Source: Pisolithus tinctorius
Taxonomy: Eukaryota > Basidiomycota > Agaricomycetes > Boletales > Pisolithaceae
Reading direction: 5' to 3'
DNA length: 64,000 nt
Assembly: GCA_024663395.1 (NCBI GenBank)
Contig: JANFAH010000002.1
Coordinates: forward strand, 1,426,001 to 1,490,000
Under the pieces are notes generated by a model. The model was not told the DNA's origin. It searched no databases and saw only the letters and a list, made by a program, of their open reading frames with translations. The number at the start of each line of letters is the position of its first letter. Position 1 is the first letter of the stretch. This document shows positions 4,432 to 25,572 of the stretch, in pieces. The position numbers and the translations under genes were made by a program.

Positions 4432-4438
4432 TACCAGT
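4432..4438 (+). repeat. Target-site duplication of KDZ element, left copy
   Basis: TACCAGT, repeated at 21342-21348. One copy plus the flanks rebuilds the Plavaka reading frame. Confidence 0.85.
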
Positions 4439-4524
4439 CAGACCCTTCAGTCACATGTAATCCAGAAAGTGGGTCATCCGACATGCACATTTGGTCCTGA
4501 AAGTGGGACTAACCGACATCGGCC
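4439..4524 (+). repeat. Left TIR of KDZ element
   Basis: 86 bp starting CAGACCCTTCAGTCAC and ending CCGACATCGGCC. The inverted partner is 21256-21341. Mismatches are concentrated in the outermost 7 bases. Confidence 0.85.
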
Positions 4525-4559
4525 TATAGACCCTGATGGTGGATAGGCCGACATGTTGG

Positions 4560-5500
4560 AGGGAGGTCGGCTGACCTCACTGGGGGATGGATCCACACCC
4601 TGGAAGTGGTGTCGGCCGACCTCACTGGGGGATGGACCCACACCCTGGAAGTGGTGTTGGCCGACCTCACTGGGTGATGGACCCACACCCTGGAAGTGGT
4701 GTCAGCCAACCTCACTGGACGATGGACCCACACCCTGGAAGTGGTGTCAGCCAACCTCACTGGACGATGGACCCACACCCTGGAAGTGGTGTCGGCCGAC
4801 CTCACTGGGGGATGGACCCACACCCTGGAAGTGGTGTCGGCTGACCTCACTGGGGGATGGACCCACACCCTGGAAGTGGTGTCGGCCGACCTCACTGGGG
4901 GATGGACCCACACCCTGGAAGTGGTGTCGGCCGACCTCACTGGGTGATGGACCCACACCCTGGAAGTGGTGTCGGCCGACCTCACTGGACGATGGACCCA
5001 CACCCTGGAAGTGGTGTCGGCCGACCTCACTGGGGGATGGACCCACACCCTGGAAGTGGTGTTGGCCGACCTCACTGGGTGATGGACCCACACCCTGGAA
5101 GTGGTGTCGGCCGACCTCACTGGGTGATGGACCCACACCCTGGAAGTGGTGTCGGCCGACCTCACTGGACGATGGATCCACACCCTGGAAGTGGTGTCGG
5201 CCGACCTCACTGGACGATGGACCCACACCCTGGAAGTGGTGTCGGCCGACCTCACTGGACGATGGATCCACACCCTGGAAGTGGTGTCGGCCGACCTCAC
5301 TGGACGATGGATCCACACCCTGGAAGTGGTGTTGGCCGACCTCACTGGACGATGGACCCACACCCTGGAAGTGGTGTCAGCCGACCTCACTGGGCGATGG
5401 ACCCACACCCTGGAAGTGGTGTCGGCCGACCTCACTGGGCGATGGACTCACACCCTGGAAGTGGTGTTGGCCAATTTCACTGGGGGATGGACACAGACCT
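4560..5500. repeat. 45-bp tandem array, left end of KDZ element (~21 units)
   Basis: The period is exactly 45 bp. Each unit reads CTCACTGG-x-GATGG-x-CCACACCCTGGAAGTGGTGTCGGCCGAC, and unit variants differ mainly by transitions at CpG. Because 45 is a multiple of three, long open frames appear on both strands; they are not genes. The array shares the core CCTGGAAGTGG(T/G)GTCGG plus CCGAC with the right-end array, in inverted orientation, which suggests transposase-binding subterminal repeats. Confidence 0.9.
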
Positions 5501-5787
5501 CACCACCTGGAAGTAGGGTTGGCCAAACCCTGAAAATTCCCTTGGCATAATCAATTGCTTGTCAATTTAGATGTTACCAGAAGTATTGACTCTGATGACA
5601 CTTCCAGATGGACATACCCCCTGAGACCAGTGTTGGCCAACCTCACTGGGGGGTGGCCTTACCCCCTGAATCCATGGCCATTCTTCACCTCCAGGTGATG
5701 TCAGTGATCTCACAGGGTTTGAAACTTGCAATGAGCATGGGTAGCCATATATAGGGATCCTTTTGATTCACACCATCTACAGTTTAT
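5501..5787. other. Spacer between array and cargo gene
   Basis: This contains decayed pieces of the 45-bp repeat (for example about 5620-5660, a GTTGGCCAACCTCACTGG-like stretch) and no convincing gene. Confidence 0.4.
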
Positions 5788-8166
5788 TTATAGACCAAGA
5801 CCCAGAGCTCTCTTGGTTGGTTGACGAGCTCTAGTTGATTTCTTGCTTGCCTCTTCACCCTCCTTTGCCATCTTCTGATCAACATCCCCACTGCCTCCCC
5901 TTTTTCTTTTCCTCACATCCTTTCTTGTATTCTGGGATTCCTTCATGCCACCCCCCTGGGTGGGACAGGAATCCCCTGCACTGACCCCAGTTGTTTCCTG
6001 TGCACCAATCCCTCTGCTTGAGCCACCAGAATTCTGCTGCAGTCTTGCAACTACCAGCCCCACTGCACCCATAACATCTTCCCCCTTGTGGATATCAAGA
6101 CCTGAGCCTAGCAAAAAGCCCAGATTAGCAGCTTCAGGGTCATCTGATTCTATGTCCTGTGCTCTTTTGCACTCCCTCCACAACAAACCAAATCCCAGTA
6201 CAATGGTAAGACCTTTTTGGGTGGATGCAAACTTTTCACTTTGCAATTGATACAGTGCCTTCCAGAAGGAATCCCCATTGCCATGCATCTCCTGGGGCAA
6301 ATACTGGGCACTCCAGGCCCAAGATGCCCAGACAGGCAGGTTGACTGGTCCAGCATCAGGTTCCTGTACAAAATGTTTGTTAACCTGGTATTTGAAGAAA
6401 GTTTATCACTTACTGTCTCTGGCAAGCCATCTACAAGCTCAACAAGTTCCTGGTACCTGGGCATGATGCAAAGGGACTTTAAATATTTCACCCTGTCCCC
6501 ATTGGCATGACAAGCAGGGCTGGATTCATGAGGGGTATCTTCAGATGGGGCCCTCCCAGAGTCAAGGATATCCTGGGCCCCTGATGAAGTTGCTATAGGG
6601 GTCATACCAGCCCCACCAATTTCTTCCCCTAAATCTGAGGGCTTGGCCTCCACCCCAGCTTCACTGTCCTCCCCAGGGCTCATCCACTCTCTCTTTTTGG
6701 ATGGGGTTTTCCTGTTCCAGGGCCTTCCCAATGGCTCGTCCTCCTTTTTGCACTTGATGAATGAAACAATCACCTTATCCTCCTCCTCTTGGGAATTCCA
6801 ATGATTCCAAAGCATCCACATGTCGGCCTTGGTCCATTTTGAAGGATCTTTCATCATGAATCCTTCTGGGATGGAATCGGAACTCAGATACTCCAAATGG
6901 GACTTGATAAGCAGGCCCCAGGGAACCTTGGCCTTGGGCTTCCCTGTAAACTTTGCTATGTTTCCAACTTCCTTCAACAACTGTAGATGCACTTGACAAT
7001 CAAGAACATACCATAGGCAGCCTGGAAGACCATTCTTGCCAAACTCTGCTGGACCTTGAGTTTCTGACCAGTCCAAGCTGGTACCTCTGGGTTTCCTTCA
7101 TCATCCAAGGCTATCTCCACCTTTGGATTCTCATCATTCAAATCTTCCTCAGCTGAGTATGGAATCAACCTAGGTACACATATTACATTGATCACCAATG
7201 TTTATCACTTACCAGCTTCAGTCAAAAGATAATTGGTTAACATTTGCTCTCCCTTTAGAACCCAATCCTTGGTGGGCTCTGAAGACTCTGAGAAGGCCTT
7301 CTTCCCATCAGGGGGTTGTGTTTCAAAGCTAGGTTTCTTCATTAGCATTGGATAGACAAGGTAAAGGGGAACCTACACTGCCATCTTGATCTGAGAATCA
7401 GTAGTCTCATGAGCCAGAAACATCACTATATTTGACCACATGGTCCTCCTGACTGTTTCAATAAAGTCTCTGGCCATGTTGGGAAAATTTTTTCTCCTGT
7501 ACCTGAATTATTGCATGATTAGTATAAGACATTTGAAGTAGACCAGCACTGACAATTCATGAGTTTCTTTTGGAGCTCCCAACTTATTCCACTTGGAAGC
7601 AGCCCTCCCTGCTTCAGCCTTCTTGTCATCTGCAAGAGACTCCCACCACTGTTGGATGATTTTGGTCCTCTGACCTATGGTCTTGGGGTCCTTGGTGTCC
7701 CTCCTCTCCCTATCATAGGCATCCATGTCCTCTTTGAAGAGCTGCTGGGAGGCAGTAAAATCAGTGAAGGGTTTTCTGTAATTTCCAGCCTTGGTAGGTC
7801 TGGTCCTCTCCTCTCTGCCATCCTCATCCTCACCAGTCCCAGGCTGCTCCTTCCTCTTGTCTGTTGCAGCCAGGATGCTCTCAATGATGTGTTCCTCATC
7901 ATCCTGGTCTTCAGGGTCTAGTTCTGGCAAAAACACCCTTCTGATGGCCTAAATACACTTGAGATATGTGAAACTTGATGAAAAAGATACCCTACCACTC
8001 TCAAGTTCTGGGGCAATTCCACAGATCCTGAAGATGCTTGCTGAAGGATCTGGGATTTCACATCAGCCAGGATCTGGGCCCTGAGGTCAGGATTCCCTCG
8101 GGCATCTGTGTACTGCTCCACATAGGAGGACAGCAGATCAGAGTAGACTTCAGACCAATCAGCCAT
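5788..8166 (-). CDS. KDZ-element cargo protein, unknown function
   Basis: This multi-exon minus-strand gene starts at the ATG at 8166 (MADWSEVYSDLLSSYVEQY) and ends at 5788. Recognisable exons cover about 8000-8166, 7535-7955 (AIRRVFLPELDPED, then an HKWN-like region with QQWWESLADDKKAEAG), 7380-7500 (YRRKNFPNMARDF, MWSNIVMFLAHE), 7215-7375, then about 7000-7170 (VPAWTGQKLKVQQSLA), 6420-7000 and 5788-6360. The C-terminus is basic (RKDVRKRKRGG, KKSTRARQPTKRALG), suggesting nuclear localisation. Similar proteins occur beside KDZ transposases in Agaricomycetes, but I know of no assigned function. The exon junctions are my reading and are approximate. Confidence 0.6.
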
Positions 8167-8399
8167 GAGAGAATAAAATCAGGGGGATAATTAGCAGCAC
8201 AGATGATGGAGGTTGGAAGCAAGGTGAAAATTTTTCAGCCTTTCCCAATTTAGGCAGGAGGTTGAAGTTTTCGGCCATCACTCTTTTAGGAAAGGTACCA
8301 TTATGGTATGATTGTTTTGATGTATTTGCTATTCACTTTGATTCAGATACCAAGTGCAAAGCAAGGGTAATCGGAAAACTATACACATATACCCATGTT

Positions 8400-11300
8400 C
8401 TAAATACAATCCATTTGTTTACCTTGGAACATCAATTGGGCCTTTTTGGAAAAGTCAGTCCACAACACTATCTGCTTATGAGCATAAGCCTTTTTCCCTG
8501 GTTCCAACAATTGTAGAGCCCTTTTCTCCCATATGTCCTTCTGGAACTCAAACCATAAGATGGCCCAAACCATCTCATGCCTCACCAATGACAATTCTTC
8601 TTTCCACCTGTCCCTTCTTGCCCTTGCTTTGAGCCAGTTGATCCTGTAAACTGCCCCACAATTTATTGGTGAGATTTTTTTGAGTAGTATTAACACTTAC
8701 ACTCCTCCATTAAACCCCCCTTCTCAGCATTCAGTTGACCCTGTTCACCATCCATCATCCAAAACCATGCCATTTTGCTGGTTCCCTGCCCAAACCGGTT
8801 CTCCTCTGTAACATCCTTACTCACTGCCAGGTCCTGGGGCTGAATAGCCTGATATCTTTGTCCAATCTCTTGATTGGGTTCCAACTGGAGAATGGCCTGC
8901 CTTGCCCTCTGATAACTTCTGACCTGCTTGTTTATCCGAGCCACCACTTTTTGGATGTCCTGCTTGGTTCTTGTACCTTCCCTAGTTGATTGTGCACTGT
9001 GGAAGTTCTGTCTGTATAACATTGCCTTGTGTCCAAGGTTGGTTCGGAGCTGGTCTAGACAATCATTAGCTTGCCCAATCCTGAGTTCCATTTCTTCTTT
9101 GAGGAGGTCATGAAGGCCAAGCTCCATCAGTTTGGTTGCTCCAATGGATGAGGGCATCCATATACTCATGAGCTCAGCAGGTAGCTCCTCTCCTTCTTCT
9201 GTAGCCTCCCAATCCTCATCATCTTCCCAGTACTCTCCATTGTCATCAATTTCTTCACCTTGCCCAAGGAATGCTGGATCATCCTGGGGTATGAAGACAT
9301 CGTCCACCTCCAAACCTTTGAGAAATGCCTGGCTGGTGCCATGGAATTTGTCAATCCTGGCAGAAAGTCTTTTTCTTTTCTCTGAGACTTTGATTTCTTG
9401 TCTGGTAGACATGTGGCTCTGTCTAAGCTCAGATCTTAGCTGGTCCCTGCAGGTCTGGTTAGCAACCTATTGCTTCTGGAAACCACAGACCATACTGTGC
9501 ATCCTCTATGCTAATTCCTTCCACAAGCCAAGCCACAGAACCATGGCTCCCTGGGGACACAGGTGGATTTTTCATGAGCTTTAACTGCACTTCACCCATG
9601 GTAGGGGCTACAGGCCATCAGACATGCCCAGGGTTTCTTAGGAACATACTGACCTTTTTCCCCTTTCAACAAATAAATGTCTAGGGAATCACCTCGATTT
9701 GCTTCTGCCTCAAGAACATCCGACTCCCATTGGGCAAGTTGGCCAGGGTCTAGAACAGCTGTCAACTGCTCATATGCCTGATTCATTTCTTCTAGGCACT
9801 TGTGTGAGGTCTTGTATTTTTTCAACAGTGCAGGAACTGAGATGTACAGGGTAAATTAACTTCTCTTTGAAGAAAAGGTCTCTCACCCATGTTGACAATT
9901 TTTTTCCAGTTAGAATCTCTCATATGGTCATCATACACTTCTTGTCTGTGGGCCTGAGTCATAGACCTTGCAGTGGGAGAGATCTTATTGAATGGAGCCC
10001 ACAATGTCTCCAAAATTTCACCATCCAGATGACCAGCACCCTTGATAAAGTTGAGGCTATATCTTGGAAAGCAAGAGAGTTTGTGGGCAGCAAGATGAAA
10101 CTTCCCCACAGCAGGAATGATTTCCAGGGAGGGAGGGAGATGGAGAGAGCAGCTGGATTTTACCCGACTCTGGAAGTTAATACTCCACTGGCACCCAACA
10201 TCATAAATGACAAGGGCCTTTGTGATGCTTTCTGAATGATAATCAAGAGCACTGCAGATGGAGTAATCTGTGTTCATGTACCTAGCACAAAATGAGTTCC
10301 AAAGGCTTCCAGTACATCCATCAGGTCCACTCACTTTTCCCCTTTCTGAAAGTCCACCACAGAATGGGGAACAAAGCAACCATGCTGAGCACAGGCTGTG
10401 GCACCAATCCCAGTGGACTGGAGATTGGACTTGTTAATATTAGCAGCATTGATTGCCCTGTGATTGCTGCAGGTGGATCTCTACCAGTACAGTGGGTCAT
10501 TTAAACTCCATGACCTTGGGACAACTCACCTCCTTGTTATCCAAAGACTGCTCAAGATGGGCCTGGTAGGGCTTTTCAGCAACCATGTAACCAGTTCCAT
10601 CTGATAATGACACATCCAACTCAGGCTTGTTCATTTTCATATGCTGAGCAGTGAAGTTGCCATCCATGACATATTGCCTCATTATGGTATCACTAAGGGG
10701 GGAGGGGAGTTAGAAATCAAAACCCTACAGATTATCACTCCATACCTGTCATATCGGGTTTTCCAATCTGGAGGTAAATTAATACCTGGTTGTGGGCAGG
10801 CAGGACAAAAGAGTGCAAGTTCTCCTTGTCTAGGATCTTGTTCTTTATCATGACCAAAGCCAAACCATTTCCTATGTTTCAAATCCCTCCACAGTCTGGA
10901 AACCCTCATCAGCTCTCGGTACCTGTCCTAATTGGAAATGAATGCATTAATAGAACCCCCTAAGAGCAAATAGTGCATGGCACTCAACTGGTATACAGTC
11001 AGGAAATGCATTGTTGGTGAACCTCTTCAGCTTCTGATAGAAACTCATAGCTGAAGTCTTGCATTCCAGGGCATCAATGAGAAAGTGATTAAGAACATCA
11101 AAGGTGAAAGCAGTCTTGGGCTTTGTTATACTGGCTGGAAAGAGTCTTTCCCTGAGTAAATCAAGGTGCCAGTCCATTGGATCTGACCCAGGGCAATTGC
11201 ACCAAGAAATCTCATGAGTGAAAATTCCTTCTGTGTGCACTATGGTCATTTTTGATCTGAAGGATCTCCTGCTACCAGAGGTTAACATGGAGGCTACAGG

Positions 11301-12000
11301 ATATGACTGCCATTGACCTGTAATTGGGAGGCCCTTCCCCAGAAGTATAGCCCAACTCCTCTGAGTCTGGATCCTGATTCTGTCTGTTTTGAGGGCAAGG
11401 ACGACCCCCATGGCCAATGTGCCAAAGGAACCCAAGTGCCATCAAAGAGGTAGCCTGGTAATGAGTAGCATTCCATCTTTGTACCTTGTGGAATGGAAGA
11501 TTTTGATGCACTTTCACAGCACAAGGACCACACCAGGCATGCACACCAATGCAGGACATGCATCTGATACTTCCTTCTGCCTGACAGCACTGCTCACATA
11601 TCCCCCCCTTAGCCAGCTGCTCTCCCTCGAGAATGACTTTGAGATATTCTGCTCTCCAAGGCAGCCATTCTCTGATGAAATCATTTTGACTCTAGGGGAT
11701 AATTTAGCCAATGCAGTATCAGGCAAAACTTCCCACCTTGGTAACCCTCCTAGTATTTGGGGTATCTTCCTCATCATTCCAGTCCAAGGTAGGCATGTCA
11801 AAGGAGTCTGGGACAACATTTTGGGAGCCTATTGTCCTGGGGGTCCTTGGAGTTGAAGGTTGACTCTGAGATGGGAGGTAGAGGTGTCTAGCATCCACCT
11901 CCTTGTAGGTGTCCTTTCCTCTCCGGGTTTTAGTCACTTCAAATTTATACAAACCTCCTGCAGAGCTTTTGCCAAGGACTTTGGTTCTACGACGACGCAT
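8400..12000 (-). CDS. KDZ transposase with CxC2-type cysteine cluster
   Basis: The minus-strand gene starts at the ATG at 12000 (MRRRRTKVLGKS) and stops at 8400. In order it shows a basic/acidic N-terminus, a CxC2-like cluster (CEQCCQAEGSIRCMSCIGVHAWCGPC, then LPFHKVQRW and GHGGRPCP; about 11380-11620), WCNCPG, TAFTFDVLNHFLIDALECKTSAMSF, CPACPQPGINLP, VMDGNF, the catalytic-region motifs MNTDYS, VIYDVGCQW, GAGHLDGEILETLW, and the C-terminal RIGQANDCLDQLR and INWLKARARRDRW. These are the standard marks of the RNase H-like KDZ family, which cuts and joins the element ends. Joining the frames near 11290-11350 needs either a very short intron or a frameshift, so activity is uncertain. Confidence 0.9.
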
Positions 12001-12144
12001 GATTGAGCACAGGAAGAGTCAAAAGCAAGGTTTTCAGCTGTATTGAAAAATTTTCATCCCCAAAACAACACCACACAAGTCCAGAACAAGGTTATCAAAT
12101 GTATTTAAAATATTTGTACCCAAAAATTGCCACTAAAATGTGTT

Positions 12145-13490
12145 TTAAGTGTATCTGACAGCCAACCCAAGAATGTCCTTTTGGGTAGTCCATGCTGGTC
12201 TTGTGACCTTGAGTCGGTCATGTACTTTGTCCTTCATATAATGCACCAATGCAATTCTTTCTCCCTTCTCCCACTTTGGCACAGAATGTTGAAGGATTTT
12301 TCCTGATAGGAAAATCATGGTGCCTGGGGAATAAGCCAGTTCGGCCCCCAGATCTGGAATAAGGAATTTAGCATTGTGAGAACCCAGGCTCACTAATGAA
12401 TCCAGAAGGGTTGGGGTGGATGTGACATCTCGGTGAGAGGGAGTTTCCTGATTGACAATAATATCAATGTTGGTATAGACCGATGGCCAATCCAGGGATA
12501 TCTCATTCTCCACCCTGCCAGCCTTGGCCAACATTGCTTGATCACCAGCCCTGGCCATATCTGGCAATGAGACCTTTGCTATATTGCTCCAGAAGTGTTC
12601 CACATAAGAAATCTTGAGCAGCCATTCCCTATTGGCTTTCTGTTTGAGGGATGTGCTTTGATAGAGTGTATCAACCAACCTCTTTAAATTTGTCAGCCCC
12701 TACCATGGAAATCACAGCACCTGGACAAACCTCATGAGCCTGTTGGAATGTGGCAGGAGACATGGAAATCCTGCCATGTCCATACATGACTTGGTCAACA
12801 GGCTGATGCTTATGGCCATATCGTTTGTTAAGCTTGCTTTTGTCTTTTGGCTTGTTCTTGGGCTCAGTCTGAAGATTGTCTTTTATGGAAAGGAGAAGGG
12901 AATTGAGAAGTTCCTATGATATAAAAGCTGTAGTGAAGGGTTGTCAGAGAATGAAAACACTCACTATCCGTGCATCTGGGACAATACCAGGCAGATACCA
13001 TACTATCACCCTGCCATGCACATCCAGAACTGTGGCAGGAGCATTGATATACCCAATTTTTGGGTTTTCAAAATGGATGGTCCTGTCCTTGGCATGCACC
13101 AATGGTTCAGAAAACCTGTCTGCATCCCAATGCAACACATCTATTAAGGGTCAGACTTGGATCACTTGGAATTGTTGTGGAAATCACCTACAGGGATTGA
13201 GGATGGCATGTGTAATGACTGCGGATGCCAGCCTAACTTCCAAAGATGTAATAGCATCTGAAGTTAGACCAGATTCCCCTTGCAATGTTGCCCTGACTTG
13301 GGTTAACTCAGCCAAGGATCGAAGTCTATTATCCAACTAAATACATAGCAAGTGTAGCATCACTGCTTATGGCTTACCTTGGCTTCCTGAGCTGGTGATT
13401 TGAGAAAATAGAGCTGGAAGAGATCATAGGGACTGTTCCAAAGGCAGCCTTCAGCATTCCAACCACCATTGTATGCAGGGAATCATCCAT
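12145..13490 (-). CDS. TET/JBP-family 2-oxoglutarate/Fe(II) dioxygenase
   Basis: The last exon (12145 to about 12670) contains NQETPSHRD with the HxD iron ligands (about 12430), GTMIFLSGKILQHSVPKW with the distal His, and KGERIALVHY with the 2-oxoglutarate Arg, in the spacing of fungal TET/JBP enzymes. Upstream exons read INAPATVLDVHGRVIVWYLPGIVPD (about 12970-13060) and RLRSLAELTQVRATLQGESG (about 13260-13340). The product would oxidise 5-methylcytosine in DNA. Introns are small. The N-terminal exon (GWNAEGCLWNSPYDLFQLYF, about 13380-13470) is in a frame with no visible ATG, so the exact start is unresolved. It is transcribed the same way as the transposase, 145 bp upstream of it. Confidence 0.85.
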
Positions 13491-15060
13491 GATGATGTGG
13501 GGGGTGTTGGAAAAGTCAAAGGAAAATTTTTCAACCGCGAGAAAAATAGTTAAAAATCACTCAGTACATAAGTAGGAAGTTATTCTCCACAAGGGACCTT
13601 GCTTGACTTGGGGGAAGATCCAGAATCCAGAAACCCAACTTAGTCTACTAGATACACCATGTTTCTTGAAACATCTAGTCATGTAAGCAGGGGCCTGGAA
13701 TGGTGCAATCAAACTCAGCAGCAGTTGAACTCCAAGTCAATCCAGTCCAGCAATCTCTTGAGCATCATGGGAAACCATGGAACACCAATACTAATCTAGC
13801 AATCTAGCAACATCCAACAGCTAGGAACACATCCAGACAGCATTTGAAGGGAAGATGTTGGGTTGCTAGTAATGCCATTGGCAAGCTCTTGAGCATCAAA
13901 GGGAAACCTTGCTTAAGAAGATCAGCCATGGAACACCAGTGCTAATCTAGCACCATCCACCAGCCAGGCAGACTGACATGAAACAATACACCAAGTCATT
14001 TGCTAAGGTTAGGGTTAGAAGCAGACTTGCATGAAGAAATACACCAAGTCTTATGCTAGGGTTAGGGTTAGCACATGCTTCATTCAAAAAAAGAAGCATA
14101 GATTCCCACACAGCATTCAAATCCAATCAAAGCAGTGACATTTACAAGGTCATACATAAATTCAACTACAGTTACAATTTCAACTACAAAGGTATAATGG
14201 TTTCATAAGAAACCAAGGCTTGCCTGCATTCCAGAGGGGGCCCTCCTCCAGAAGTACAGTTGGGCCAATAAAAACCGTCCTCAATTCAACCAAGTTCCCA
14301 AAAAAGCGCACAAAAGCTGATAACAAAGATCCTAAAAACACATTAGCATCAACACAACTTTGCAAAGTTCACATACCTGAGGTGCACTCTTTATTCACCA
14401 GGAGTCAAAGATAAACAGCTCTAGAAAGTTTATGTCAGTACAACATAGATTATACAGAAGTTGAATACTCACTACACCAAAGCCTGACCAACTAGCTACT
14501 ACCAATATATACCAACACATACCACACAAAAAAACGTCATAGGCTGACCCACACAGGTGGGTACAGACCAAATAAAACGTCATAAGCTGACCTACAATGT
14601 AGGTACAGACTAGCCCCCAGATCCCATGAGCTGGCCTACAATGTAGGCACAGACTATTCCCCCAGACCCAACATATTACCCAACAACCAAAAATTGCGCT
14701 GGCCAAGCACAATCTAAGGTCAAGGGTAGCCCCTCCCTACATCCTGTAGCTGCAGACTACAGTCAATAGTGAGGCGCCAAGGATGCTGCAAAGTAACGGT
14801 AATCAAGTAATGTGAAAATTCTGGGATCAGAGGTGCCACTTACCTTATGACAGCCGAGACGATGGGCTGAGATAAAAACGAAGATGACGTAGCACAGAAA
14901 ATGGGAAAGAGAGAGGGGGAAAGGGAGATGGAGATGGAGGGAGAGGGAGGATGACGGAGGGGAAGCGTCACATCGCAGAGAAACGCAGTAAGGGAAAAAA
15001 TATGCCACTGACTGGGGGGGATTTATATACTTGAGTCTTATGTACCGTTGTTTGGCCACA
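13491..15060. other. Non-coding stretch with small repeats inside KDZ element
   Basis: I see no supportable gene. It holds repeated phrases such as ACACCAGTGCTAATCTAGCA (13.7-13.95 kb), two TTAGGGTTAG pieces (about 14008 and 14061) within a ~53-bp duplication, three hairpin-like units around CCTACAATGTAGG (14533-14655) and a purine-rich tract (14905-14965). Confidence 0.5.
14533..14655. repeat. Three imperfect hairpin repeats
   Basis: Three units of about 43 bp each contain CAT(A)AGCTGACC followed by an inverted pair (ACCCACACAGGTGGGT, then CCTACAATGTAGG twice) and ACAGAC. No coding role is apparent. Confidence 0.55.
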
Positions 15061-15760
15061 GTCCAACTAGCGAGGTCACCGTCAATGTCACGTTCTCGGC
15101 CTCGGTGCGTGTTCAGTTGCCGTGAGTGCCGGCAACTTCCTCTGAGTCAGTACCAGCGTGTCGTACTATACATCGCGAATAGCGATGTCACGTGACTCCA
15201 CTGTCACCGGATTCGGCTTCTATATACTAAATACTAAATGTTCGCTTGACATTCTCGTAATTGCATTGTCGAGCCGAGCAAGCACTCCCTCATGCCATTG
15301 GCTGAGCGGTAGTGGTGGCTTACCCTTGGGATTTCACAGAAAATGTATTGTAGTAGCACTACCGGATCATTTAATACATGTAGTCACTTATTGAAACCGG
15401 AAATCGGCCTAGCGGCGATGGACCACTCCGTATATAGTCCTACGTAATGTTCCAGAGACGCATCCGAAGTACGGGTAGACACAGTGTGATAATCATGACA
15501 GCCGTGACGTTGTTCATGTCACAATTAAGGTTGTGTCCAAGATTATCATAGGTCTCACTACGTGACCTGTCCAAAATCGAGATCTGTGCATCCGAGTATC
15601 CGGATTGACACGGTCTTTTGCTCCTCTCCTCTTGCCACACAGTGTCTCCCTCACCGACCAGTCGTTGCATTATCCCACTCTCTGGCCCCGCTGCATCTCA
15701 GCGAAATTTTTGGTATGTCAGTCGTCCTCTGGATCTCTCGCGCCTCTCCCTCTCTAAACA
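15061..15760. other. No gene seen
   Basis: This is intergenic sequence inside the KDZ element, between the divergently arranged TET/JBP and H3-tail genes. Only short shadow frames are present. Confidence 0.4.
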
Positions 15761-15765
15761 CAAAA

Positions 15766-17315
15766 TAGGTACGTCGTGCTGCATCTCCCTTCAAAAAAAA
15801 AACAAAAAAGGTATGTTGTCGAACCTCTCATGGCTTCAACACTCACATCACACACCAGGACGCTGCCATTCTTCTCAGTCTATTGCGCATTGTTCAGTGT
15901 CCCATACTACTCACAAAGCCCGTTCATTCAAAAAGAAGGTAAGTAGCTCGCAGTGTCCCTCTACAACTCACAAAACACCCCCCTCCTCTCGCCGGGTCTC
16001 ATCCAAAAAACAGGTATGTCATCCCAGTGCGCAGCGTCTCTCTACCACTCACAGAACACCCTCTCGCCTTGTCTCATCCACAAAACAGGTATGTCGTCCT
16101 ACTTCCCGGCATCCCTCTACCACTCACAAAAACACCCCCTTGCCGTGCTTATCCAAAAAAAAGGTATGTCGTCCCAACTTTGCAGCGTCCCTCTACAACT
16201 CACAGAACACCCCCTCGCTGTGCCTTATCAAAAAAACAAAAGGTAAGTCGTCCCAGGTCGCGGTGTCCCTCTACCACTCACAGAACACCCCCTCGCCGTG
16301 CTCATCCAAAAAAAAAGGTATGTCATCCCAGCTTTGCGGTGTCCCTCTACAACTCACAGAACACCCCCTCGCCATGCCTTATCCAAAAAAAAGGTAAGTC
16401 GTCCCAGGTCACGGCGTCCCTCTACCACTCACAGAACACCTCCTCACCGTGCCTCATCCAAAAAAAGGTACGTTGTCCCAGCTCGCGGCATCCCTCTACC
16501 ACTCACAAAACACCCACAGAACACCCCCTCGCCGTGCCTTATCAAAAAATAAAAGGTAAGTCGTCCCAGGTCGCGGTGTCCCTCTACCACTCACAGAACA
16601 CCCCCTCGCCGTGCTCATCCAAAAAAAAAAGGTATGTCGTCCCAGCTTCGCAGCATCCCTCTACAACTCACAGAACACCCCCTCGCCGTGCCTCATCCAA
16701 AAAAAAGGTACGTCGTCCCAGCTCGCACAGCGTCCCTCTACAACTCACAAAACACCCACAGACCACCCCCTCACCGTGCTCATCCAAAAAAAAAGGTGTG
16801 TTGTCCCAGCTTCGCGGCGTCCCTCTACAACTCACAGAACACTCCCTCGCCGTGCTCATCCAAAAAAAAAGGTATGTCGTCCCAGCTTCGCGGCATCCCT
16901 CTACAACTCACAGAACACCCCCTTGCCATGCCTCATCCAAAAAAAAGGTACGTCGTCCCAGCTCGCGCAGCGTCCCTCTACAACTCACAAAACACCCACA
17001 GACCACCCCCTCGCCGTGCTCATCCAAAAAAAAAGGTGTGTTGTCCCAGCTTCGCGGTGTCCCTCTACAACTCACAGAACACCCCCTCGCCGTGCCTTAT
17101 CAAAAAAAAAAAGGTATGTCGTCCCAGGTCGTGGCATCCCTCTACCACTCACAGAACACCCCCTTGCTGTGTCTCATCCTACAAAAGGTATGTTGTCCCA
17201 GTTCCTGGTGTCCCTGTACCACTCACAAAACACACTAGTAGGCTATCAATTCATATCTCCCTCCTGCCACACTGCATCTCCCTTGCTGTGTCTCATCCAA
17301 TAAGGTATGTTGTTG
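15766..17315 (+). repeat. Tandem array of splice-site-like modules (~20 units)
   Basis: Most units are 74-78 bp, with three of 87-88 bp. Each contains a run of A followed by AAAGGTATGT, AAAGGTAAGT, AAAGGTACGT or AAAGGTGTGT (a 5' splice-site consensus), then ~30 bp, CTCTAC(A/C)ACTCACAG (a branch and 3' splice-site-like end) and ~33 bp beginning AACACCCCCTCGCCGTG. Units therefore resemble repeated 42-nt mini-introns and ~34-nt mini-exons on the plus strand. The array leads into the H3-tail gene, whose ATG at 17599 directly follows an acceptor, ACACTCAG. It may form the 5' leader of that gene. Long open frames across it look incidental. Confidence 0.75.
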
Positions 17316-17598
17316 GACTTCTACTTCATGGTGTCCAGATGATACTTACATATCACCCTCTTTGGTCTGCTTATCCAGTGCCCAGTGTTGTGTAGTTGCA
17401 TACATTGGCTTGTCTTTTCCATAAATATGTAGATATCCATCCCTGCTGCATGATATATGTACTAAACTAAATGCATTTATTGTTATCTTACTGCTTGTCC
17501 CCTACACCTTCTGTGTCTTGTAAAGATAATAAGGTATGCTACTGTTCCCTTCTGTGTCATGTTGCTGCCACTCACTAATGTTGGCATAATACACTCAG
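17316..17598 (+). promoter_or_regulatory. Leader region of H3-tail gene ending in a splice acceptor
   Basis: It contains a final donor-like AAGGTATGCT (17531), a branch-like CTCACTAATG (17572) and the acceptor ACACTCAG (17591-17598) immediately before the ATG. This suggests the start codon opens a downstream exon after a 5' UTR intron. Confidence 0.45.
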
Positions 17599-19186
17599 AT
17601 GGTGAAGACCAAGCAGACAGCTAAGAAGACCACTGGGGGTAGAGCTCCCAGGGTATCTCTTGCTGGTCTGAAAGCTAGGGAAAAACATGCTGCCAAGTCA
17701 AGCAAGGCCCATGCTAGGAAGGCCCCTGTTGCCAAGAAGAGAAGGATGAGGAACTTGGCAAGTCTCTTTTTATATTCCATCCATCTTTCTAACATTCTAT
17801 GCAGTTCTGTGTGATGTGCAGGGATGGAGGGACATTGTGGCCTTGTGATCAGGCAGGATGCAGAAGGGTAGTGTGTAACAAGTGTGTTGTAGTACCTGAG
17901 GATTGCCTTGCAGAGGTCACCCAGCTTCCTGTGACCTTCAGGTGTGTTAACCTCCCTTTTATGAATTAATTCCATTGACTCAAACTCTGGATGAACTTCA
18001 GGTGTGTTGCCTGTCATTGGAAAATGACAAGATTTGAAAGTCCTCAGCCCTATTTTGTAAGTGCATATTGCCACCCCAATCACTTCTAACTCCAAGTACA
18101 GGGCTTCTACTTGTCAGGCAAGCCAGTCCTGAAACACCCTCTTGTGGTCATTGGGGGGTTTGAGCATGCCACCACCTCTGAAGTGGCTGGTAACTCTACT
18201 GCCATTATCCACCTCCACCTTGAGTCTCTAGAGCTTGGCCATGCCCCTGTGCATATCCTTCACACCATGTTGCAGGGATATTTCAGACAAGACACCTACC
18301 ACTTCTCACAACTGTCCTTCAACTTTGCCACTGAGGAGTCCAGAGCTGCCTATGACACTGCAGCATCAAAGCTAGCTTCAAGTCTGACTACCTTTGCTAA
18401 GGTAGTCATTTTCCTTACTACCCATACTGATGAAGACAGGGGGGATCTGTTCTCTGGAATGGAGAATAAGGTTCCAATAGCCACAGAGGTCTTTGAGGTA
18501 AGTCACCATTGTTTGACTGTCACTCCCATCTGACCAGTTGCAGTTTCTGCAAGGCCTTCTGTTACCCCTCTCCAACATTGTCAAGGGTGGAGACCTCATC
18601 TTCTTTGTATGTGGTTCTACTGTAAGGAAGGAGCAGAGCTTCCAAGGACTGAAGGCAGCTGTGCAACAGTAGGTTTTCTTTCAATGTTGGTGGTTATGGC
18701 TGACACCATATCAGTTTCAAGCCAAGGTCCATGTTGCTTTTTGATGCTGAGAGACTTCAACTAGTCACCACCATTCCCTTCCTCATGAGTGTCCTTGACT
18801 CCACCCTTGTTCAAGGCTTCCATGTCCAAAGTGCAGTCAGGTATGCCCTGAATGACTGTGGTATGTTGGGTAGGCACTCCAACATCATCCTGATGTTGTG
18901 GCAGGAGAAGGTAGTGGTGGAGAAATTTGTCTGGACTGACAAGTTCATCAGGCCTTGGGGACAACAATTGCCTGCCCAGTGCCCTCAGTGTTATAGCATT
19001 CAGAAGTGGGAAGCTGGTTGTTCAGGGCAGACTTATTCCTATGAGTGCAAGAATCCTGGCTGTGGGAAGGACACACAAGGCACATCTCAGCCTCCCCAAA
19101 CCTATACTATCTGCATGTCCAAAGGGGCTACCAAACTGACACAGGGAAAGGGGCAAACATCATCCTGGCTGTTGGAATCTTTGTAA
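17599..19186 (+). CDS. Histone H3-tail mimic with PHD-like finger and C-terminal zinc ribbon
   Basis: Exons are 17599-17757, 17805-17941, 18002-18056, 18102-18497, 18544-18668 and 18715-19186, giving 447 aa with all phases agreeing; the first intron is GC-AG. Residues 2-22 match the histone H3 tail at 14 of 21 positions, keeping T3, K4, Q5, T6, A7, K9, G12-G13 and A15-R17, with R2K, R8K, S10T and K14R. Then come a lysine-rich stretch, a cysteine finger CVMCRDGG-x5-C-x5-C-x4-C-x2-C (residues about 55-80) resembling a PHD half, and CVACHW. The middle domain has LELGHAPVHI, FLTTHTDEDRGDLFSG and IFFVCGS, which could be a caspase-like His/Cys pair (inference). The end has CPQC...CKNPGC. There is no histone fold. 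Related hypothetical proteins occur in Agaricomycetes; the function is unknown. Confidence 0.85.
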
Positions 19187-19549
19187 AATACCCTACCTTG
19201 ATACATATGATATGCATGTACTACAATCAAAAATAGCTGCTTTGTGTTTTCAAATTTCATATGACATTGAATGTTCAGAAAAAAAAGTAATTTCCTGCAG
19301 GACAATTCCTCCTTAAGTACTGATACACAACTGAGTAAATTTGCCCAATGTTAATTCCAATACAATGGCCAGATTGGTAGAGTTAACTTCAATACCACAG
19401 GATAAGGATAGGATATAGGATTTTTCCACAACCATGTGGGTTCAGCCAGCTAACTACCAAGGAAGTAGTGTACTGAGTAATAAGATTGGCCAGCCCCACT
19501 AACCCACTAGCAAGATATTGGTCTTTCTTGCAAAGTGTCTGCCCAACCA
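19187..19549. other. No gene seen
   Basis: This is the 3' flank of the H3-tail gene, AT-rich, with no convincing coding sequence. Confidence 0.4.
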
Positions 19550-21190
19550 CAACTCCAGGTCATGGTTCATTCCCCCCAGCCACATCAGCTGACCCCACTG
19601 CCAGGACATCATCCCTTCCCCCAGCCATGTCAGCTGGCCCCACTTCCAGGTCACTAATATATCCCATAGCTGGTTTGGCCAACCCCACTTCCAGGTCACT
19701 AACGTATCCCATAGCTGTGTCAGCTGACACCACTTCCAGGTCACTAATTCATCCCATAGCTGTGTTGGCCAACCCCACTTCCAGGTCACTAATCTATCCC
19801 ATCTGTGTTGGCTGACCCCACTTCCAGGTCACTAATTCATCCCATAGCTGTGTTGGCCAACCCCACTTCCAGGTCACTAATCTATCCCATAGCTGTGTTG
19901 GCTGACCCCACTTCTAGGTCACTAATTCATCTCATAGCTGGGTCGGCCGAACCCCACTTCTAGGACACTAATCTATCCCATAGCTGTGTCAGCTGACCCC
20001 ACTTCCAGGACACTAACCTATCCCATAGCTGCATCGGCTGACCCCACTTCTAGGACACTAATCTATCTCATAGCTGTGTCGGCCTGACCCCACTTCTAGG
20101 ACACTAATCTATCTCATAGCTGCATCAGCCGACCCCACTTCTAGGACACTAATTCATCCCATAGCTGTGTCGGCCGACCCCACTTCCAGGACACTAACCT
20201 ATCCCATAGCTGCATCGGCCGACCCCACTTCTAGGACACTAATCTATCTCATAGCTGTGTCGGCCGACCCCACTTCTAGGGCACTAATTCATCCCATAGC
20301 TGTGTCAGCTGACCCCACTTCTAGGACACTAACCTATCCCATAGCTGCATCGGCCGACCCCACTTCTAGGACACTAATCTATCTCATAGCTGCATTGGCC
20401 GACCCCACTTCTAGGGCACTAATTCATCCCATAGCTGCATCGGCCGACCCCACTTCTAGGGCACTAATTCATCCCATAGCTGTGTCGGCCGACCCCACTT
20501 CCAGGACACTAACCTATCCCATAGCTGCATCAGCCGACCCCACTTCTAGGACACTAATCTATCTCATAGCTGCATCGGCCGACACCACTTCTAGGACACT
20601 AATCTATCTCATAGCTGTGTCGGCTGACCCCACTTCTAGGACACTAATCTATCTCATAGCTACATCGGCCGACCCCACTTTTAGGGCACTAATTCATCCC
20701 ATAGCTGTGTCGGCTGACCCCACTTCCAGGACACTAACCTATCCCATAGCTGCATCGGCCAACCCCACTTCTAGGACACTAATCTATCTCATAGCTGTGT
20801 CGGCTGGCCTCACTTCTAGGACACTAATCTATCTCATAGCTGTGTCGGCCGACCCCACTTCTAGGGCACTAATTCATCCCATAGCTGTGTCGGCCAACCC
20901 CACTTCCAGGACACTAACCTATCCCATAGCTGCATCGGCTGACCCCACTTCTAGGACACTAATCTATCTCATAGCTGTGTCGGCCAACCCCACTTCTAGG
21001 ACACTAATCTATCTCATAGCTGTGTCGGCCGACCCCACTTCTAGGACACTAATTCATCCCATAGCTGTGTCAGCCGACCCCACTTCCAGGACACTAATTC
21101 ATCCCATAGCTGCATCAGCCGACCTCACTTCCAGGTCATCAATCCATCCTATAGTCATGTCAGCCGACCCCACTTCCAGGGAAGTTGATC
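19550..21190. repeat. 45-bp tandem array, right end of KDZ element (~36 units)
   Basis: The period is 45 bp. A typical unit is GTCGGCCGACCCCACTTC(T/C)AGGACACTAATCTATC(T/C)CATAGCTGT. Higher-order alternation of ACCTATCCC, TCTATCTC and TTCATCCC subtypes gives periods of 90-225 bp. The reverse complement shares the core around CCTGGAAGTGG-GTCGG-CCGAC with the left array. Variants are mostly C/T and G/A changes at the two CpGs of the palindrome GTCGGCCGAC. The 379-aa open frame across it is a by-product of the multiple-of-three period. Confidence 0.9.
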
Positions 21191-21255
21191 CATCATCCTG
21201 TGACATAGGCCGACCCCACCTTCACAGTCCAGCCTACCCAACCCTAGGGACCACC

Positions 21256-21341
21256 GGCCGATGTCGGTTAGTCCCAGTTTCAGGACAAAATGTACATGTT
21301 GGATGACCCACTTTTAGGACTACAAGTGACTGAATCATGTG
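21256..21341 (-). repeat. Right TIR of KDZ element
   Basis: Inverted partner of 4439-4524. It ends GTGACTGAATCATGTG, next to the TACCAGT duplication. Confidence 0.85.
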
Positions 21342-21348
21342 TACCAGT
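21342..21348 (+). repeat. Target-site duplication of KDZ element, right copy
   Basis: TACCAGT, matching 4432-4438. Confidence 0.85.
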
Positions 21349-24300
21349 ATGGATGGGGAGCAAGTCCATCCTGGTCTGGACACTTGTCTTCATGTGCTAA
21401 GACCATGATATCTGCATGTGTACGGGGGTTTAGGGAATCCTGTGCTTGGCGGCAGTTGTATGACGTATAGTTTATTCGAATTGACTTGTGTCGGTAGATG
21501 CGGTCATTGACAAAATGGAGGGCATTCTGCTGATCTCTTGTGAAAGCTTCTTCGTCACCGTCGTATTCCTTGCCGAAGATTCGAGCCAGGATGTGGTCCT
21601 TGAGTTTTGGCAAAAACTTCTGTGGAGGATGCAAAGTATTAGTGACAATGCAAGCCTGACTGATAAAAGAGTACTAACCTGAGTAGCGAGGTCATCCGCG
21701 TTCTGCCCAAGCCAGCTTGAGATATGTAACAAGTATTTTGTTGAAGGGGATATATGATACTGTTCTTTGGGTCTTGAGTAGGGTAGCGGATCTTGCTCTG
21801 AAAAGGAAAGCGCCGGGTGCGGATTAGATGCAGATGCATCTGCAGTGTGGATGCGCAAATCCCTGGCATGACAGTGGTTGCGAAGTTTGTGGAGTAAATG
21901 CTCGCGCTGTTGCTGTTTAGCGATACCATGAACAAACTTGATCTTGTTTGTCTGTGCATAAAACCGTTTGACGCGCCGATGTTCTAGCTCACCCTGAGTC
22001 ATGCAAATGGCTCTCGTTACTGCAATTTCAGTGCCAGCAAAGTGACTTACCACTTGAGTAGAGTAATTGTCTGTAGTCCCAAAGAGCCAAATTGATGCTA
22101 CATAGTCTCCCAAGGTGTGCAGTTTGTATGTTGAGAGATTGAAGGTTCACTGTCGCAGGCCAGTCTGCGCTGCAGCAGGCCTTGAATTTCCATCTCCCTG
22201 AGCTCTTGCAGCCGATGCAGCCGTACGTCGACCGCGTGCAGCCTCCTCAGATGGTAAGTCTTTTGTTGCAATTTGATCGCATACAGCAGTTTTGAAGCGA
22301 CGGAAGAGGCATCCAAGCCTTGTTGTTGAGCTATCAAGGAAGTGAAGACTTGTTTCGGTATGGAGCCGTAACTTGGCGAGTGCATGCCATGTCGCCAGCT
22401 CGAAAAGAAGGTCCATTATTGTGTCGTTGTATGGAGGGGGAAGTAGACCCTCGAAGACAGGGATTGAGCACTGCAAGGATCATAGCATGTCAGTCTCCGT
22501 TCAAAGCAAAGCAAAAACATACATACCTGCAGAAGGTCTTCGAAATCACATGCAGCGAGTTTTTTCATCGCTGATGCATTATTGCTGAACTTGCAGATGG
22601 TATCTCGACCGAACGTAGGGACCTGTCGATATCTGTGCATGCTATTCAGACGGCATGAATATAGGCACAAAACCAGTTATTACCGTTTATTCAACTCCTG
22701 TATTCTATCACCTCCAAGTGCGTACAGTATCTGTATTAAATGTGTGAATGCGGCCTTCCAGACACTGAGTTCGAACTCATGAAGAAGGTCAGGAACAAGA
22801 AGGGAATATATGTCGAGGCCAAACTGAGCTAGCGGCTCTGAAAATGCGCTCTGAACCATGGATTAGACAACAATAGAAATGGAGAAAGATGGATGATACT
22901 CACATGCAGAGGCACTAAACCATGAATACCCAGAAGAGCATCGACGACCTGACTAACAAGGCTGCGACCTTTCTCGAAGATCCATCTTCTAACCGTGTTG
23001 ATCTTCTGCCAGATACTTGGGTCATCAGAGCGTGTGTAGCACTCACGGCGTATTCGATCATTCTTGGAGCCGAGCATTAAAATTTGATCCTTCTTGACGA
23101 GGCAGCAGGGACAAGGGCATTTCCCCAGATACTTCATGCACGCGATGAGAACCCTGAACAAACTTACAGTGAGTGATACCATGTGTGAGATATGAGGAAC
23201 GATCACTTACTTTTCTGGATAGTCAGCTGCATAAGTAAAAAATCGCAGGAAAACTTTGCGAAGGACGCCATCCAGAAAGCGAATGTCGAAGCCATGTTCG
23301 TAGGCGTGTATGAACTCTGCATCCAAAATGTGATTCCATATACATCAGGAAATTAACACTTTACTATTTTTGACCTTTTTGTGACTTTTTTTGACTTTTT
23401 TGTGACTATTGTGACTATTTGTGACTTTTTGGGAAGGAACCTACTATCTGTACTTTTTTCTGACCATAAACAGCATTTTGAAGAATGAAAAGAGAACAGA
23501 ATCTATTGAGACAACTAAGTGATGATATATCTAAGCCAAGAAGACTAGAAAACATCTGAAAATTCAGAGATATTGAGCCATTGGTGTGATGCACACTGTC
23601 TGAGAGAAAAATCACATTATCTCTTTGGAACCTCCATCAATTTGAATGTATGTGGTATCCACTGAAAGCTATGAATTAGGTGGTTTGAACAAGACCAAAA
23701 TCAGTGAGAACAGTGCAGCCATGCCTGCCAGACATGGGTAACAATGGTAGATTCCTTCCCAAAATGTCACAATTGTCACAAAAAGTCAAAAATAGTAAAG
23801 TGTTATTTTCCTGATGTAGAATGGAAGAGCTCACGTCTGCAGTGGGTAAGAGTCGCGGAACTTGCACTCTTTCCAAATAGATATCGATAGACCTCTTGAA
23901 TCCGATCTGGAAGCTGTGAAAATAGAGTTAGCAATTCAGTAAAAAATGAAGTATCTGAAGTGATATTACCTTAGGGATATAGGCAAGGTGATGTGCAGAA
24001 AATGACGTTGGTTTGCAGTGGATATATTTTGATTGATTTCCGACAAACACGTAGATTGGCCAGAGCGCCGCATTTCCGAAATTTGCGAGGTGGGTTGAAT
24101 CTGACCACACCATGATAGCAGCGATAACGTTCTCTAGAGTACCAGTGGTAGATTTTTGGCATTGTATCGACTCATGCTCTGCTAGCATCGCATCACCGGT
24201 ATATAGATCACCGTAGATTTGCTCTGGTTGTGCACTAGGACTTCGTTTCCAAAAGAGCTTGAATGGCTTGATGTGAAACATCTGAGCAGAAACCTCGTTG

Positions 24301-25572
24301 AAAGCAGATCTCAATAACTCCAGCAGCTTGTGATAGAATAAGTCTGGGACCTCAAACTCAGGGGCATCGAGTTCAGAAGTGAACTGAACTTTTTCGGTGG
24401 GAAGCTTGACTTTCACAGATGTCTTGTTCCAGTTGTTGGTAGAAAGTATGGAAGGGGTATTGGTGTTGTTGGGATACTTGTCCATGCGCTGGGCCTCGCG
24501 AGTGGCACGGAAACCGCACAGATCCTCACGATCGAAATCTTCAGCTAGGATTACTTCATTCACCAAGCGATCAACATTGGCGAGCAACTTCGTATTAGAA
24601 GAATTGTAGAACCATTGCATGAGACAGAACGTAGTGGGATTTAAGAAAGGTGCAAAAAATGATCGAGCGGTGTCCTGCAGCAATTCTAGGTGTGATCCAA
24701 GCCCCAAGCCTGACCACCAAGAGTTATTTGGAGGTAGTCCACAACTTGGCTCAAATGTCGAGCTCTCAAATGTTTCATCAAGAGACTGTAGGTTCTCGGG
24801 ATCGTAGGTAGGGAAGTTACGAAAATAAGAGTGGAAGACGCCATAACTGTCAGGTTCAGTATTGACGTACGATGGCTCGAAATCTTCAAGATCAATCAGC
24901 GGAGGCGAATCGGGATGGGATGGTAAGTCAGAGGATGGAATGGCATCAGTGCCATCGTTGAGGTGGGTAACGTGAGGTACAGGATTGTGAAGCGAAGGAA
25001 GTTCATCGCAGTATCGCCTAGGAAGACAGTGCGCACGATTGGGAAGACCAGAAGGTCTATAATCAGGTTTGGGTTCTGCAAAAGGGATCTGGTGAAGGGA
25101 TTAGCTGGGGTTCTCGACGGTCACTTTTGCAGAACATGGATAGACACTTACCTCGCCTTGTACATTGTCATGCCATGCAAAGTCGTCGTCTCCTCTCTGT
25201 AGGCTCTCCAATCCAAGATCTACATTCTCCTCAGCAAGGTGCCAGACTTTTTCTGCCTCAAGTTGGAGATCCTCATCCCGTTGGTGTCGTTTTTGAAGCA
25301 CAAGGGTTGTTGATGGGAGGAAACTTGTACATTTAGACCGATGCACAGAAAGCGCCCTTTGACTAGTGAAATCAGTTCTGTGACAACCTACACAAAGAAG
25401 TTGCATCAGTAATGTTAGTAGTAGCAGCCTTTGAAGGCCTGCAAGCTGCTACTAATTGCAATAAGCTATTGGAAGGGTCTGTAAGGCGGAACAACTCGCA
25501 TGACACGATCATGTGACAATGATGCATAGACATACTTATACCTACATGAGTCGTGTCCTTAGGGGCTCGCAT
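21349..25572 (-). pseudogene. Plavaka transposase, N-terminal and central parts, interrupted
   Basis: The ATG at 25572 opens MRAPKDTTHVG. An intron follows and the next exon gives a single C2H2-like finger, GCHRTDFTSQRALSVHRSKC. Family blocks follow in order: QDTARSFFAPF (24.67 kb), EQIYGDLYTGDAML (24.2), WSDSTHLANFGNAALWPIYVFVGNQSKYI (24.05), LPTADVSSSIL (23.85), EFIHAYEHGFDIRFLDGVLRKVF (23.3), ACMKYLGKCPCPCCLVKKDQI (23.1), and further conserved exons to HPYWY at 21349. A MITE at 23343-23816 disrupts the coding exon between SSSIL and WNHILDAEF, and the KDZ element removes the C-terminus to 4431. The ancestral enzyme would have mobilised the outer element. Confidence 0.9.
23343..23816. mobile_element. 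MITE copy a (474 bp) in Plavaka transposase exon
   Basis: TIRs start CATCAGGAAA(T/A)TAACACTTTACTATTTTTGAC. It is flanked by TA (23341-23342, 23817-23818). Subterminal TTTTTGTGAC-type repeats are present and there is no coding capacity. Near-identical copies lie at 35889-36362 and, inverted, at 25762-26236. Confidence 0.9.

Follow-up and report, generated by a model that had tools for sequence, protein, structure and literature searches.

The window, as we call the whole 64,000-nucleotide stretch of Pisolithus tinctorius DNA that was analysed, carries a six-exon gene whose predicted product starts with an imitation of the histone H3 tail and continues into a cysteine finger of the type that reads H3. 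The gene is a structural gene of a Kyakuja-type KDZ DNA transposon, within which it lies together with a CxC2-KDZ transposase and a TET/JBP gene. The features are listed by position.

4432..4438: left 7-bp target site duplication, TACCAGT (from uninterrupted sites)
4439..21341: complete Kyakuja-type KDZ element, 16,903 bp, 5'-CA...TG-3' (both end points shared to the base by the copies listed)
5791..8180, minus strand: further element reading frames (no Pfam match; one matched at 65% in the C42 element)
9825..10433, minus strand: KDZ transposase reading frame (Pfam KDZ PF18758, E 1.9e-28)
10950..11441, minus strand: CxC2 cysteine cluster before the KDZ domain (Pfam CxC2 PF18803, E 5.3e-24)
12148..12699, minus strand: TET/JBP dioxygenase reading frame (Pfam Tet_JBP, E 3.2e-9, 36.7 bits, cut-off 34.9)
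17599..17757, plus strand: predicted exon 1, 53 codons covering the H3-tail mimic (residues 1-21 after Met) and a basic linker (from sequence and conservation)
17805..17941, plus strand: predicted exon 2, the first six Cys of the PHD-like Cys8 finger (PHD/ADD fingers matched by profile)
18002..18056, plus strand: predicted exon 3, the finger's last two Cys and His (FRCVACHW)
18102..18497, plus strand: predicted exon 4, first half of the middle domain, T223-x-H225 and RGDLF (strand-helix order predicted, low confidence)
18544..18668, plus strand: predicted exon 5, middle domain with C272-G273
18715..19186, plus strand: predicted exon 6, remainder of the middle domain, then C4 zinc ribbon and stop
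21342..21348: right 7-bp target site duplication, TACCAGT (from uninterrupted sites)

The six-exon model is open throughout and, with the predicted splicing, encodes 447 amino acids in the order H3-like tail, PHD-like Cys8 finger, middle domain with conserved H225 and C272, and C4 zinc ribbon. The finger comes after the tail, and no Pfam histone match was obtained for the protein, hence it has no histone fold. Intron 1 is GC-AG in window-type copies and GT-AG, at the same place and 46-87 bases long, in nine copies of other subfamilies. The exon order recurs in the better-preserved subfamily copies (the tail exon and, after a short intron, the finger exon, then a middle exon of 396-417 bases, one of 125-128 bases and the last exon), a recurrence that would be hard to explain if the predicted splicing were wrong. 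Exons 2 and 3 are fused in some subfamilies, and the L052 model includes one more intron, placed within the last exon.

The exon 1 product from the ATG at 17599 is MVKTKQTAKKTTGGRAPRVSLAGLKAREKHAAKSSKAHARKAPVAKKRRMRNL, and the exon starts with MVKTKQTAKKTTGGRAPRVSLA. After the Met the tail runs V1 K2 T3 K4 Q5 T6 A7 K8 K9 T10 T11 and onward G12 G13 R14 A15 P16 R17 V18 S19 L20 A21; the rest of the exon is rich in Lys and Arg in the window copy. The tail shares 14 of 21 residues with canonical H3 1-21 (a sequence taken from general knowledge) and 15 of 21 with the host H3, the T10 of the host H3 genes (L065-L068) accounting for the higher score. By comparison, the 1,209 stop-free ATG 22-mers of the window outside 17500-19300 match H3 1-21 at no more than 6 of 21 positions, with a mean of 1.26. 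In the 92.5 Mb genome the degenerate DNA pattern M-x-[RS]-TKQTA occurs at 15 places, which are four histone H3 genes, one H3 first-exon fragment and ten members of the mimic family; the reversed pattern occurs at none. Searched against PDB, the whole 447-residue protein has histone H3 as its best match (E 0.0024), and the mimic-family profile A1 finds H3 at E 1.1e-4. These results confirm that the tail is a genuine imitation of the H3 tail. The first-pass annotation had described 14 identities with R2K, R8K and K14R, followed by a finger, TTH and VCGS motifs and a zinc ribbon in place of a histone fold, all inside a KDZ element beside a TET/JBP gene. On rereading, the count, the three substitutions and the coordinates are correct, every motif is present and the histone fold is absent; KDZ and TET/JBP are confirmed by Pfam and lie in the same element, 4439-21341. 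The observation is thus confirmed, and the interpretation built on it is partly supported, as discussed below.

Three of the H3-related loci in the genome have features of their own. The fragment at L064 is an H3 first exon (MPRTKQTARKTTGGTAPRKQ) upstream of a different, repeat-containing reading frame that is not a histone fold. L065 and L066 are variant H3 genes about 12 kb apart on opposite strands (C39:381441 and C39:393343); their intron sits at a different place, and they read ...APRKQLAAKSAGSKKT....

Searches of this one genome with three different middle exons gave 76 distinct family loci in about eight subfamilies, whose middle domains fall to 25% identity. Each of the 41 exact tail starts lies within 1.1 kb of a middle-domain match. 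We modelled 55 loci, 54 of them distinct since L035 and L057 denote the same place; the window copy is L015. Among the 31 distinct window-type loci, Met and tail are present in 30 and the gene is intact throughout in 23, and among the 23 divergent loci Met and tail are present in 17. The tail is kept without a Met codon in L039 and L040, from about residue 13 onward in L045, and as a remnant without Met in L063; L076 has a tail without Met, and L077 a tail with a frameshift behind it. The first-pass annotation had named homologs without the H3-like start as evidence against its reading. Among the 56 loci (of 76) that were read, the tail-less ones, L044 and L058, contain frameshifts and stops and are 5'-truncated or heavily decayed, and the likeness of L044 to its relative ends just before the finger exon. 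Among the other 20, window-type loci were covered by the exact tail pattern, C3:4014737 and C11:1165100, of another type, were seen through the second pattern only, and the upstream of some loci (e.g. C14:558606, C125:37820 and C1:1436807) was left out of the tail count. In this genome, all members that were examined and whose 5' end is preserved keep the H3-like start, so that this check did not refute the reading. In viral contigs, none of 34 pattern stretches was a relative.

The tail starts with MVKTKQTAKKTTGGRAPR in the window copy, MARTKQTAKKVTGGLAPR in L043, MPRTKQTAKKSNGGVAPR in L047, MARTKQTAKKSACGTATR in L054, MARTRQNTKKTTSGIVPR in L049 and MVRTRSSTKNAKGGSASR in L055. R8K is found in all subfamilies and no host H3 gene has K8; this speaks for a single origin of the tail. 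K4 is replaced by R in two subfamilies and by Q in one; K9 is replaced by N in one (L055), whose tail has drifted to 6 of 21. Wherever a modelled copy has the Met, the next residue is V, A or P, before which methionine aminopeptidase removes Met. The likeness to H3 stops at about residue 17 and the first coding exon of the canonical host H3 ends after residue 19 (L067), so that descent of the tail from a captured H3 first exon is a reasonable reading of the sequences. Separately, L050, L051 and L062 share with L049 a stretch of only 1.82 kb containing the mimic gene (L049 2518-4341); the flanks differ and no inverted repeats are visible around the common stretch. From these alignments, the mimic gene seems to change carriers.

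Selection was compared between protein regions in six subfamily representatives (15 pairs). The pN/pS ratio was 0.30 for tail residues 2-11, 0.40 for residues 2-22, 0.43 for the finger, 0.59 for the middle domain, 0.60 for the C-terminus and 0.81 for the linker, whose mean identity is 14%; synonymous differences are near saturation, so these values are contrasts between regions and not absolute rates. Within the tail, differences are 2.5-3.4 times as frequent at synonymous as at nonsynonymous sites. Non-basic H3 residues, among them Q5, G13, A15 and P16, are mostly retained, and T3 is retained throughout. When 427 windows of 20 residues were ranked, the one starting at residue 1 came seventh and the one starting at residue 2 came 26th, the top places being taken by the regions around TTH..RGDLF, the PWG motif before the zinc ribbon and the finger. 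The tail is among the best-kept parts of the protein, not the single best.

The finger has eight Cys in cross-brace spacing and a final His, invariant in 8/8. Its profile matched PDB entries of SP140 (E 1.9e-5), CHD4 (4.4e-5), the ATRX ADD domain (4.2e-4) and AIRE (4.4e-4), and more weakly PHF21A (3.3e-3), TRIM24 (7.4e-3) and TRIM33 (0.011). The fingers of these seven proteins bind H3 unmodified at K4. MLL1 PHD3, a K4me3 reader, was also reached (E 0.013). The Pfam PHD model stayed far below its cut-off (best E 7.6, in 1/7 members) and the PDB profile search was significant; we therefore use the label PHD-like. The PHD/ADD fingers of SP140, CHD4, ATRX, AIRE, PHF21A and TRIM24/33 share the spacing of the Cys and a C-x2-C-x-[DN]-G core with the mimic finger (E 1.9e-5 to 0.012), which differs from PHD fingers in having Cys at the fifth ligand, CH at the end and no general acidic R2 contact. 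The fifth PHD ligand is usually His, and ADD fingers too have Cys there. An acid (D) follows the third Cys in only 3/8 fingers; we take this position to correspond to the BAZ2B aspartate that holds H3 R2. The AlphaFold model of tail and finger was of low confidence (mean pLDDT 33.8).

In Pfam, CK_II_beta was matched by 5/7 members (best E 0.0075), which was taken for generic zinc-ribbon similarity; NCBIfam and PADLOC returned nothing usable.

KDZ transposases were reportedly named by Iyer et al. in 2014. The ends of the window element were located by DNA searches with both flanks, the best 40 candidates being scored for each. At six uninterrupted sites (C16, C104, C19, C6, C4 and C7) the two halves overlap by 7 bases, for example at C16:177926-177932, and the element termini form imperfect inverted repeats in which 49 of the first 60 positions match. 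The element sits in another repeat (window 3300-4438 and 21342-25500), whose uninterrupted copies give the empty sites; a Plavaka transposase match was seen at 23931-25100. By eye, the element contains three tandem-repeat arrays, at 4500-5550, 15600-17240 and 19560-21340. The array between the TET and mimic genes may explain some of the variation in spacing from copy to copy.

The association of tail and transposase, which the first-pass annotation had proposed to survey, was counted for the exact tails. A window-type KDZ gene, counted over 40 KDZ places with 72% identity or more, lies within 20 kb upstream on the other strand of 34 of the 41 exact tails (at 7-8 kb in 23 of the 34), and no window-type KDZ lies within 20 kb of the remaining 7. 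A window-type TET/JBP match lies near at least 23 of the 41, and KDZ and TET/JBP are both present in at least 22; this count used 24 window-type TET places among the best 150 of 186 candidates, so TET misses are upper bounds. The C42 element is a relative with the same gene order, in which the KDZ core is 84% identical, a further KDZ frame 73%, CxC2 56-73%, the accessory frame 65%, TET 60% and the mimic middle exon 53%, the mimic being the most diverged part. For L052 and L055, the 9.6 and 9.8 kb upstream contained no match to the window KDZ, CxC2, TET or accessory frames (tblastn, E 1e-3), and ten selected frames there had no transposase match in Pfam; on the opposite side of the L052 copy, some 10 kb away, there is a KDZ match at 39% identity (C17:353902).

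The element genes have almost no CpG left for a CpG-mutating process. CpG counts are 0 over the 1,588 bp of the mimic gene, 5 over 2,410 bp of accessory frames, 15 over 3,571 bp of the KDZ stretch and 8 over 1,371 bp of the TET gene; the spacer and minisatellites of the element are less depleted (0.40-0.84), and outside the element the window has 0.7-0.9 of expectation. The genes of L041, L043 and L040 are equally CpG-poor, and intact genes of the L047-L055 types are CpG-rich. Decayed CpG-rich copies differ from their relatives mainly by CpG to TpG/CpA changes (L054 to L061, 86 of 105 differences; L055 to L060, 37 of 41; L050 to L059, 71 of 112; L049 to L053, 41 of 78), and in the CpG-poor pair L043/L041 such changes make up 2 of 27. 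The family loci therefore meet a CpG-mutating process. The pattern of decay would be the signature of CpG methylation or of a RIP-like process, and the process is probably methylation-driven.

What would such a protein do? The reading that we favour, with slightly less than even confidence, is competitive mimicry of the H3 tail, in cis on the protein's own finger, in trans on host readers, or both, with an anti-silencing effect. Removal of Met before V, A or P would expose an N-terminus imitating unmodified H3 residues 1-17, and the fast-evolving linker would tether this tail to a PHD-like finger of the unmodified-H3-reader type. In cis, the tail would occupy the surface of its own finger meant for the H3 N-terminus, from which nucleosomal H3 could displace it as in a switch. 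In trans, it would occupy host H3-tail readers that silence repeats. TET/JBP would attack the DNA-methylation arm in parallel. This mechanism is favoured because the tail is kept in about eight subfamilies despite the divergence of the middle domains; the small residue 1, R or K at position 2 in most, T3 and K8 fit recognition of an unmodified N-terminus. Against it stand K2 instead of R2 in the window copy, the scarcity of the acid after the third Cys, the reach of the finger profile to MLL1 PHD3, the Pfam PHD score below cut-off, the drifted L055 tail, the tails that have no Met codon, and the tails and subfamilies with no window-type KDZ gene in the stretch covered.

The same evidence bears unequally on what the first-pass annotation had inferred. 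Binding of the tail by the protein's own finger, one of its suggestions, is somewhat favoured by the closeness of the finger to PHD/ADD fingers that read unmodified H3. Its other suggestion, that the tail sequesters H3K4/K9 writers, is weakened by K8 in all subfamilies, by R or Q at K4 and by N at K9 in some, so that methylation of the tail is no general requirement. H3K9 methyltransferases use R8; R8K throughout and K9N in L055 disfavour a bait for K9 methylation, and the subfamilies with R or Q at K4 do not need K4 methylation. The anti-silencing role that it had proposed is kept here as a putative one.

Alternatively, the tail might be purely a decoy in trans, without cis contact with its own finger. 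The targets could be UHRF1-type PHD readers, an LSD1-type demethylase (as for SNAG-domain proteins) or the H3-tail module of a maintenance DNA methyltransferase. An exposed N-terminus and A1-R2-T3-K4 are what such factors read, and the UHRF1 PHD is said to be a reader of unmethylated H3. Three SRA-domain matches in the host genome exceed the family cut-off, each of them partial. The DNMT5 chromodomain is described as engaging the H3 N-terminus (PMC13297926), and SNAIL1 and influenza NS1 are known histone mimics (PMC5663869). However, a decoy of this kind leaves the constant presence of an H3-reader-type finger in the same protein unexplained, and K4R in two subfamilies would impair some targets. 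We regard it as rather unlikely.

A third explanation places the activity in the middle domain, as a caspase/CHAT-like cysteine protease (H225, C272) that would clip H3 tails or silencing factors, with the K8 tail as pseudosubstrate or targeting device. In seven aligned subfamily members T223, H225, R230-G231-D232-L233-F234, C272-G273, F300 and A302 are invariant, and both H225 and C272 follow hydrophobic stretches. K8, common to all subfamilies, would suit a pseudosubstrate. The structure prediction that the first-pass annotation had called for was obtained for exon 4 alone and at low confidence (mean pLDDT 53.9); helices and strands alternate in it and the His comes directly after the third long strand. 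This half-domain model had no Foldseek match with E under 0.001, however, and for the middle domain neither a PDB sequence match nor, in Pfam, a match to CHAT or caspase families was obtained. When the domain was compared with CHAT sequences by hhalign, the best alignment had both dyads in register but was not significant (P 0.34); it scored 15.1, against 13.0 +/- 2.5 across 59 shuffled profiles, which reached at most 22.8, and 13.7 with the profile reversed. Among decayed copies, L056 and L063 have Tyr in place of the Cys, and L053 has lost the RG of RGDLF. A protease is improbable on this evidence. Equally speculative is a combined scheme in which the H3-reader finger would hold the tail until unmodified nucleosomal H3 displaces it, freeing a His/Cys catalytic domain to act on H3 tails or silencing factors; TET/JBP would be a second arm, directed at DNA methylation, and the genes, purged of CpG, would offer little to methylate. 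We give this scheme little credence.

It is similarly doubtful that the tail, captured as an H3 first exon, now serves only as a basic segment for nuclear localisation or DNA binding. The extent of the likeness relative to the host exon and the Lys/Arg-rich remainder of exon 1 agree with this view, but the linker is not conserved while the non-basic tail residues named above are largely kept. An artefact or chance, such as a coincidental match or a pseudogene exon of H3 next to a gene that has nothing to do with it, has a precedent of sorts in the fragment at L064 and can be practically discounted, since the exon order and short first intron are the same across modelled subfamilies, the background maximum is 6 of 21 and the tail's synonymous sites differ more often; chance, pseudogene exon and mis-splicing were rejected on the subfamily evidence.

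We return to competitive mimicry, which sets the element beside several known systems. As described in the available text, TET+ Kyakuja elements of Agaricomycetes have a KDZ transposase, TET/JBP, 7-bp target duplications and CA...TG termini, and two L. bicolor Kyakuja families are without terminal inverted repeats (Kojima 2025, PMC12730594). The window element resembles them in all four features and differs from the two L. bicolor families in its imperfect inverted repeats, so we call it Kyakuja-type and do not assign it to Kyakuja. The main text of that paper, as far as available, has 'PHD' and 'zinc finger' 0 times each and 'histone' 4 times, none on an H3-tail/PHD third protein. CxC2 precedes KDZ in the window element, as the cluster precedes the transposase in intact KDZ elements of P. 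ostreatus (PMC7641404, in the part available). We found no report of an H3-tail mimic encoded by a DNA transposon in the open-access literature, a scope outside which Iyer et al. 2014, a paper that may mention accessory proteins, falls.

Histone mimics are known among viral proteins and host regulators. If the proposed role is true, mobile elements would counter histone-based and DNA-methylation-based silencing with one gene set, and the natural tail variants R8K, K4R, K9N, V1 and P1 would serve as evolution-tested probes of what readers require. Compared with histone H3 itself, residues 1-17 are alike, and the mimic is without the histone fold and has R8K in all subfamilies. Influenza NS1, G9a, SNAIL1 and the BAZ2B linker likewise have a short H3-like segment that competes for or recruits binders of the H3 tail, and the BAZ2B segment competes with H3 for the PHD of the same protein, according to the accessible part of PMC5663869. 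Unlike these mimics, the segment described here spans about 17 residues, has a predicted free N-terminus, is carried on a DNA transposon and has been kept while the rest of the protein diverged deeply.
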